From the NCBI GenBank assembly GCA_958295715.1, contig OY282371.1, positions 372,001 to 436,000 on the forward strand: a stretch of 64,000 nt of DNA, written 5' to 3'. The position numbers and the translations under genes were made by a program. The notes under the pieces were generated by a model. It did not search any database. It was not told where the DNA came from and worked only from the letters and a program-made list of their open reading frames with translations. Source of the DNA: an uncultured Dehalococcoidia bacterium (GTDB taxonomy: Bacteria; Chloroflexota; Dehalococcoidia; Lucifugimonadales; GCA-2712585). Shown here one piece after another: positions 20,515 to 29,101 of the stretch. Position 1 is the stretch's first letter; each line of letters opens with the position of its first letter.

Positions 20515-20916
20515 CTACTCCTTGGGAGGCGTCACGAAGGGGTACTCCTTCTTCCAACCGCTGAAGCCGGGGTCCATGTAGGACACGTTGGTGTAGCCCA
20601 TGCTGATAAGTGTCTGCCCTGCCAGGGCAGCTCTTCCTGAACCCCCTCAATGGGCTATGACGCAGGCGTTCTTGTCCGGGACCAGTTCCTCAATGCGCCC
20701 CTCGAGGCGGCCTCGGGGCAGGAGAACGGCCCCCTCTATGTGCCCTTGGGCGTGCTCGTCCGGCTCCCTGACGTCTAGGATGACGATGGGTTCGCCCGCC
20801 TGGAGGCGCAGGTAGGCCTCCGCCGTCGGCACGGAGGGAACGGATTTCTGGGCTTCCTCAACCATTCGCTTTCCGACCTTTTCCAACTTCTTGCTCCCTT
20901 TAAGGTGATGGGTCAA
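20515..20916 (-). CDS. Predicted selenocysteine-containing rhodanese (TGA at the catalytic position)
   Basis: The frame reads through an in-frame TGA at 20649-20647 and ends at TAG 20515: 133 residues with Sec at 90 if started at TTG 20916, or 116 residues with Sec at 73 from the ATG at 20865. Upstream of the TGA is a normal rhodanese half (VILDVREPDEHAQGHIEGA, then NACVIAH). Downstream is the other half (GGSGRAALAGQTLISMGYTNV, split here, and FSGWKKEYPF). The TGA falls exactly on the active-site cysteine of the C-x4-R loop (U-GGSG-R). A perfect 7-bp hairpin with a GGC loop starts 16 bases after the TGA, as in bacterial SECIS elements. A plain nonsense mutation is the alternative, but intact downstream coding argues against it. 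Annotation pipelines would truncate it at 20647. Confidence 0.75.
20614..20630 (-). promoter_or_regulatory. Candidate bacterial SECIS hairpin
   Basis: Immediately after the in-frame TGA of the rhodanese gene the mRNA reads CUGCCCU-GGC-AGGGCAG, a perfect 7-bp stem with a three-base loop. The loop begins 23 bases from the TGA, within the range given for bacterial SECIS elements, and opens with two guanines, the conserved loop feature. It lies inside the coding sequence, as bacterial SECIS elements do. Confidence 0.65.
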
Positions 20917-20994: not shown

Positions 20995-21440
20995 CGTCAT
21001 CCCCGCCCCCTCTCTCTCGTCGTTCCCGCCCTCTTAATCCGTCATTCCCGTGAAAACGGGAATCCAGGAAGGCCCCAACCCCAAATGGCGAATGTGTCGC
21101 TCTCACGCCCCCCGGCCCAGTCTGCCGCTCTGTTAAATGAGGACGATGGCGTTAGGAGGGAATAAGAAAAGATGGATTCCCGCCTGCGCGGGAATGACGG
21201 ATGGGAGGACGCGGGCGGTGGTAGCGAGCGTGACCGGTGGCCCCGGGGCTTGGGGCGTTGGCTTTGGGGTGTAAGGTTCCGTCATTCCCGTTTTCACGGG
21301 AATGACGGATAAGAGGGGCGGGAATGGCGGATGGGGGCGGGCGGCAATGGGCACGTGTGCCCCCTTAAGTTTTTGGGGCGTTGGTGTGCGTCGTGGGCTT
21401 CCTGGATTCCCGTTTTCACGGGAATGACGGAAAAGGGGGC
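20995..21440. repeat. Intergenic cluster of GTCATTCCCG palindromes
   Basis: No gene is seen between 20946 and 21541. The stretch holds at least four copies of the palindrome family: 21041-21064, 21175-21200, 21281-21307 and 21404-21430. The first two are the ends of a composite element, listed separately. The spacer between stems alternates between a Cys-codon-free TTTTCA type and a CCTGCG type. The sequence before 21404 (CACGTGTGCCCCCTTAAG) resembles the inner part of the second repeat family in the window. Confidence 0.8.
21041..21200 (+). repeat. Composite MITE-like repeat, family I, copy 1
   Basis: About 160 bp bounded by GTCATTCCCG at the left and CGGGAATGAC at the right, i.e. terminal inverted repeats, each being one arm of a hairpin. 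The interior shares AATCCAGGAAGGCCCCA, AATGTGTCGCTCTCA and GGACGATGGCGTTAG with the copies at 35452, 43591 and 63406. It contains no coding frame and is probably non-autonomous or structural. Confidence 0.75.
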
Positions 21441-28499: not shown

Positions 28500-28528
28500 A
28501 GATTAAGAGGTGAAGGGCTTTTAGTCAA
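28500..28528 (-). promoter_or_regulatory. Sigma70-type promoter of the acetyltransferase gene
   Basis: TTGACT (28528-28523), a 17-base spacer and TAATCT (28505-28500) on the minus strand, about 43 bases upstream of the ATG at 28457. Confidence 0.65.
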
Positions 28529-28569
28529 CAGCCGGGAGCGGGGCGGGCCCAGCGCCGGCTCCTGGCCTC

Positions 28570-29045
28570 CTATTCGTCATTCCCGTGCAGGCGGGAATGA
28601 CGGGCGCGCCCACTTAGTTTTGAAGGGCGTTGCGAGCGTCTGGATTCCCGCCCCCCACCCCTCATTCCCCCGCCCCTCCCTCCCGTCATTCCCGCGTAGG
28701 CGGGAATCCATCTTCTCCCCGTTGCGCCGGGTGGGGAGGGCGAGGCACCGCCACTAAATTGGACGGTGGGAGGGCAAATCGGAGGTTCCACGCATTGCTT
28801 TTAGACAGGCGTTCCTGGATTCCCGCTTACACAGGTTGCCCAACCCCGCCCAGGGATGGATTCCCGCCTGCGCGGGAATGACGGAAAGGGGTGCGGGAGT
28901 GACGGGCGTGAGAGCGACACATTGGTCGTTTTGCGATGGGGCCTTCCTGTGATTCCCGCCTGCGCGGGAATGACGGGTAAGAGGGTGGGAATGACGGAAA
29001 AGGGAGGCGGGAGTGCCGGATAAGGGAGGTGGGAATGACGGGCGG
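28570..29045. repeat. Intergenic cluster of GTCATTCCCG palindromes
   Basis: No gene is seen from 28529 to 29072. The stretch contains a family II copy (28576-28640), single palindromes near 28684-28712, 28856-28884 and 28950-28976, and a half copy of family I (about 28893-28978, with GAGAGCGACACATTGG and GGGGCCTTCCT). Several copies seem to have inserted next to, or recombined with, each other. Confidence 0.8.
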
Positions 29046-29072
29046 GGGGAGCGGAATTTTGGGCGCGGGGCG

Positions 29073-29101
29073 TTGACATACACGATGGCGGCAATTATTG
29101 T
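29073..29101 (+). promoter_or_regulatory. Sigma70-type promoter of the DUF1800 gene
   Basis: TTGACA (29073-29078), a 17-base spacer and TATTGT (29096-29101). Transcription would start near 29108, about 87 bases before the ATG at 29195. Confidence 0.7.

Follow-up and report, generated by a model that had tools for sequence, protein, structure and literature searches.

A putative selenocysteine rhodanese gene

The window analysed here is a stretch of 64,000 nucleotides from an uncultured Dehalococcoidia bacterium (contig OY282371.1, positions 372,001 to 436,000). Its minus strand carries a rhodanese gene that is very probably a selenoprotein gene, with UGA decoded as selenocysteine (Sec) at the catalytic position. 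The features of the locus, in window coordinates, are the following.

20515..20886, minus strand: Sec-rhodanese gene, TTG start to TAG stop, 123 predicted amino acids with Sec at position 80 (PF00581 match with the UGA read through; orthologue starts)
20894..20900, minus strand: likely ribosome-binding site AAGGGAG, 7 nucleotides 5′ of the TTG start (sequence)
20545..20823, minus strand: Rhodanese domain PF00581 (Pfam match; AlphaFold2 model; Foldseek match to 6mxv)
20647..20649, minus strand: in-frame TGA, putative Sec codon at the catalytic cysteine position (TGA in 13/13 orthologues; Cys in distant homologues)
20632..20649, minus strand: six-residue rhodanese active-site loop U-G-G-S-G-R with invariant end Arg (alignment; loop rule of PMC8533005)
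20614..20630, minus strand: putative bacterial SECIS hairpin CTGCCCT-ggc-AGGGCAG, 7 base pairs, loop 23 nucleotides past the UGA (fold, pair counts, synonymous identity)

The original prediction had placed the gene at 20515-20916 and left its strand unstated. The end at 20515 is confirmed, but the start at 20916 is probably too early. Orthologue N-termini follow the pattern [M/L]-E-x-[VI]-G, in some cases with an in-frame stop directly upstream, and TTG-GAA at this point is common to the window gene and its two genus-mates. These observations, together with the AAGGGAG element, make 20886 the likely start.

Reading frames that stay open across a TGA are common in this GC-rich window and carry no evidential weight by themselves: 158 TGAs are flanked on both sides by 40 or more open codons. 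When the UGA is read through, the product matches PF00581 over residues 32-124 with an E-value of 1.9e-20 and a score of 73.7 bits, against a Pfam gathering cut-off of 22.2. The in-frame TGA (20649-20647) indeed occupies the position of the active-site cysteine. Rhodanese sequence lies on both sides of it, and the 43 further rhodanese codons that had been reported before the TAG are present on the minus strand. Codon-position differences after the UGA are 0.49 at third positions, compared with 0.15 at first and 0.18 at second positions, and this third-position excess indicates that coding constraint continues past the UGA.

Conservation of the TGA codon

Orthologues of the gene were found in 13 of 250 genomes of the order, the window's own genome included, and these are distributed over five families. 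All 13 carry TGA at the catalytic codon, and a search of the same 250 genomes yielded no orthologue with a cysteine codon (TGC or TGT). The suggestion that relatives be checked for Cys or Sec at this site is thus answered uniformly in favour of TGA. Thirteen genomes assembled independently of one another share this TGA, which makes a sequencing error untenable.

The closest homologues outside the orthologue group share about 40% identity, and their residue at the UGA position is Cys, except in a second family of UGA-containing rhodaneses described below. More distant homologues with Cys at the Sec site include both domains of 6mxv. A pattern scan of 84,980 species recovered the Sec-rhodanese only in metagenome-assembled genomes of Chloroflexota, several of which are named Dehalococcoidia, and no further UGA orthologue emerged when 393 genomes from the class and 400 from the phylum were scanned. 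Two TGA-bearing rhodanese matches from the phylum (G882 and G908) were set aside, as their TGA lies outside the active site and the normal catalytic Cys is kept.

A second UGA-rhodanese copy in genome G034 (L064 / L079 2069-2242) is partial and lies on a short contig; it is 61% identical and has lost the upstream frame. This copy is either a paralogue fragment or a contaminating contig.

A conserved RNA hairpin downstream of the UGA

The predicted transcript forms the hairpin CUGCCCU-GGC-AGGGCAG downstream of the UGA. As originally described, it is a perfect 7-base-pair stem with a loop starting in GG, located on the minus strand. The distance of 23 nucleotides given for it holds from the UGA to the loop, whereas the stem already begins at 16 nucleotides. 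The model of bacterial SECIS elements in PMC13188914, whose rules we applied by hand, calls for a loop of 3-9 nucleotides, a stem of 4-16 base pairs, a G in the first two loop positions and a spacing of 16-37 nucleotides. With 7 base pairs, a GGC or GUC loop and a spacing of 23 nucleotides, the hairpin fits these rules as had been proposed.

Of the 1606 TGAs in the window, only 6 are followed at SECIS spacing by a strict 7-base-pair stem whose loop starts with G, and among these six only the TGA of the Sec-rhodanese sits inside a recognisable protein. A second such candidate (13626, minus strand) overlaps an intact gene in a different frame and was rejected. A hairpin after a TGA is therefore uncommon here, yet by itself it falls short of proof; what we regard as decisive, at the level of sequence, is that TGA and hairpin are conserved together in 12 other genomes.

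All orthologues retain the hairpin, in agreement with the expectation that it would be conserved in relatives. Across all orthologue pairs, the six codons that encode it show a synonymous identity of 0.967, the highest of 94 six-codon stretches, whereas the best stretch that does not overlap the hairpin reaches 0.71. Synonymous identity outside the hairpin is about 40% (40% upstream of the UGA, 34-48% in the flanks). When the stem is aligned in register, 99% of its cells are paired, compared with 28-54% when it is slid. The outer C-G pair is replaced by G-C in two species (L027 and L029) such that pairing is kept, and the codons concerned then specify Gly and His rather than the Ala/Ser and Gln of the others. 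Covariation of this type is seen in only one of the seven stem pairs. One orthologue (L030) has a single C-A mismatch in the stem, and the sole loop change among orthologues, GGC to GUC, stays inside the G[G/U] rule (PMC13188914).

The minimum-energy fold of a longer, 71-nucleotide stretch differs from this hairpin and is no more stable than that of shuffled sequences, whereas the short hairpin itself does show excess stability. The argument for a predicted SECIS element is carried by conservation. The hairpin motif occurs once in the genome, and therefore a repeat element is rejected as the source of the palindrome. Dispersed palindromic repeats of GTCATTCCCGTGAAAACGGGAATCC and GGATTCCCGCCTGCGCGGGAATGAC types, REP- or MITE-like, are present elsewhere in the window in intergenic regions (21040-21300 and 28500-29080).

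At codons +10 and +11 after the UGA, the Sec clade has Gly-Gln, and the Cys homologues mostly have Ala followed by a variable residue. The RNA hairpin thus seems to govern not only the codons but also the amino acids at these two positions.

Selenocysteine machinery and the meaning of UGA

The genome that contains the window carries all four components that the original prediction had named for inspection. A tRNA-Sec (the selC product) with anticodon TCA (UCA) is present, along with a selB match above its curated cut-off, a selA match at 2.3e-132 and a selD match at 3.5e-110. The selD gene contains an in-frame UGA of its own:

own genome C1:70120-71043, minus strand: selD, UGA-containing (CAG-U-ASK), locus L017, with hairpin AAGACCTG-GTC-CAGGTCTT after the UGA

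At the RNA level this hairpin reads AAGACCUG-GUC-CAGGUCUU, and with its three-nucleotide loop led by GU it shares the design of the rhodanese hairpin. Among the 12 other carriers of the Sec-rhodanese, 11 have selA, and the remaining genome is 70% complete. SelA also turned up in 46 of the 50 genomes examined from the order, and selenocysteine use therefore looks nearly universal in this Chloroflexota order. Selenoproteins are thus probably common to these bacteria in general, the rhodanese being one user of the trait. In the literature searched, no paper mentioned both SAR202 and a selenoprotein.

TGA is an ordinary stop codon in this genome, ending 4 of 18 window genes examined, and a reader might conclude that the rhodanese TGA is likewise a true stop that leaves a pseudogene or a truncated product. 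However, 13 genomes preserve both the frame and the protein beyond the TGA, where the differences between codon positions are biased in the manner of translated sequence, and under this reading every species would have lost the catalytic residue and yet kept both the hairpin and the decoding machinery. The conservation of TGA, hairpin and coding constraint refutes it for practical purposes, leaving it a very slight chance.

The frame is also open under genetic codes 4 and 25, as it would be if the lineage decoded TGA as a different residue, Trp or Gly. A wholesale change of code is argued against by the normal genes that end in TGA, homologues have Cys at this site, and the window's genome is equipped with complete Sec machinery, including a UCA tRNA-Sec. 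We reject this reading as well and consider it the least probable of all. Decoding of UGA as selenocysteine in a stand-alone, single-domain rhodanese is by far the best reading of the sequence data, from which we infer that Sec is actually inserted. This would proceed as for other bacterial selenoproteins, with SelB and Sec-tRNA(Sec) binding the mRNA hairpin directly 3′ of the UGA.

Predicted structure and activity

An AlphaFold2 model built from the family alignment has a mean pLDDT of 92.8, and its top Foldseek match in the PDB is 6mxv (4.4e-12). This two-domain rhodanese-like protein from Francisella tularensis is the closest solved structure both by sequence (3.6e-54 with a profile) and by fold. 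It shares with the window protein an N-terminal helix and six-residue loops (CGGGFR and CGSGFR), but it has two domains, uses cysteine and is only about 35% identical.

Among the 13 sequences, the active-site loop is U-[GM]-G-[STA]-[GA]-R, in which residues two, four and five vary and the Arg is invariant. The window loop UGGSGR fits the rule for sulfurtransferases, which have six residues counted from the catalytic residue and end in Arg, Thr or Ser. A six-residue loop is the structural hallmark of rhodaneses, and yeast RDL2 requires the Arg at the end of its loop to take sulfur from thiosulfate (PMC8533005). No conserved Cys was found across the orthologue alignment, and Sec is therefore the only conserved chalcogen nucleophile of the family.

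Sulfur transfer is the main activity that we favour, with some reservation, from these features. Sec80 would take the place of the catalytic cysteine in the six-residue loop, and its selenolate would attack a sulfane-sulfur donor (thiosulfate, persulfide or polysulfide) with the help of the loop-end Arg. The Se-S intermediate formed on Sec80 would then pass its sulfur to a thiol or another acceptor. Since no other Cys is conserved, reduction or transfer would have to rely on a thiol from outside the protein, and not on an internal disulfide. Selenium chemistry makes it plausible that the selenium form attacks faster and is more easily reversed than its sulfur counterpart.

An alternative is that the protein acts mainly as a selenol redox enzyme, reducing peroxide, arsenate or disulfides with an external thiol. 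Most selenoproteins of assigned function are oxidoreductases (PMC2398784), and the variability of loop residues two, four and five among orthologues would also accommodate such a role. Conversely, the six-residue loop with its invariant Arg is the sulfurtransferase signature (PMC8533005), and the lack of a conserved second Cys leaves no redox pair of the U-x-x-C type. We consider this activity the less likely of the two.

Gene neighbourhood offered no functional clue. Synteny is kept only inside the family, with a cyclophilin-type gene on one side and two uncharacterised genes on the other; it differs elsewhere and suggests no pathway.

A link to MoeB-type adenylyltransferases was weighed because their rhodanese domains are the strongest cysteine-containing matches to the profile in the phylum (to 5.6e-36). 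These fusions carry the loop C-A-G-G-V-R, and the best NCBIfam match of the window protein is PRK08762. The Sec-rhodanese might accordingly be a detached rhodanese partner of such an enzyme, thiolating a sulfur-carrier protein for molybdopterin or cysteine synthesis. A MoeB-type protein is present in 12 of 12 carriers searched, with open frames mostly of 275-311 amino acids (two of about 350) that leave no room for a rhodanese, and in the window's genome the MoeB-type gene adjoins a cysteine-synthase-like gene. However, a MoeB-type protein, mostly of 271-317 amino acids, is equally found in 30 of 30 genomes of the order that lack the Sec-rhodanese, and because carriers and non-carriers alike possess it, no association is evident. 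The known fusions differ from the window protein in being joined to MoeB and in using cysteine, and the tree does not place them as sister to the Sec clade. Such a partnership is accordingly improbable, and a stand-alone sulfurtransferase is the reading that we retain.

In the same genome (L107, C1 near 2307465), genes that we named by eye as an Rrf2-type regulator, a MoeB-type adenylyltransferase and a cysteine-synthase-like protein lie together, and this is a possible locus for sulfur-carrier cysteine synthesis.

Relationship to known Sec-rhodaneses

Sec-rhodaneses have been predicted since 2005, in Sargasso Sea data (PMC1088965) and also in GOS data (PMC2398784), and the original prediction was correct in tracing them to marine metagenome surveys. 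It further proposed that the window protein may be a rare family member. The membership holds, but such proteins are less rare than this suggests, as a 2026 review lists five Sec-rhodanese forms (PMC13188914). Like the window protein, forms 1-5 combine a rhodanese domain with Sec at the catalytic loop or close to it and a bacterial SECIS element after the UGA, and some are marine, as it is.

The window protein scores 35.7 bits against the cut-off of 115 for form 3 (NF041203), whose CxU motif is absent because there is no Cys two residues before U. For form 5 (TsoB, NF045694), a fusion protein with UxxxxU, it scores 25.6 of 805 bits. Forms 1, 2 and 4 (WP_010941598.1, MBM9537886.1 and MCY3690685.1; PMC13188914) were compared by motif alone, with UxxS in form 1 and UxxG in forms 2 and 4 against UGG[ST] or UMG[TA] here. 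On this comparison, the window protein appears to represent a new clade within a kind of protein that had been predicted before, and possibly a new form.

A tree that includes MoeB-fused, multi-domain and other cysteine rhodaneses recovers the Sec clade as monophyletic (99/98). Its position among cysteine rhodaneses is marked by weak deep forks and long branches, with no clear sister group.

The second family of UGA-containing rhodaneses occurs in three genomes, all from a single genus of this order:

L061 6244-6612, plus strand: UGA-rhodanese of the second family
L062 6332-6694, minus strand: UGA-rhodanese of the second family
L063 6378-6737, minus strand: UGA-rhodanese of the second family

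These genes resemble the window gene in having UGA at the same catalytic position and a SECIS-like hairpin of the same design (CGCTTGG-GGC-CCAAGTG), but their loop is U-G-G-G-Q-M, without Arg. They group with the cysteine proteins L080, L081 and L086 (support 100/96), which points to a separate change from Cys to Sec. If cysteine is ancestral, rhodaneses of this order are thus predicted to have acquired Sec on at least two occasions. The fuller account, in which a Sec-only clade of single-domain sulfurtransferases outside the five forms needs Sec for Se-S transfer and the order adopted Sec twice independently, is one that we put forward tentatively and with more doubt than confidence.

Biological implications

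Gene calling from stop to stop ends such genes prematurely, at the codon of the catalytic residue, and the number of Sec-rhodaneses in marine Chloroflexota is therefore probably underestimated. No natural Sec-rhodanese with activity data was found in our literature search. The conserved, Sec-only rhodanese clade described here offers a direct test of what selenium contributes to sulfane-sulfur transfer.
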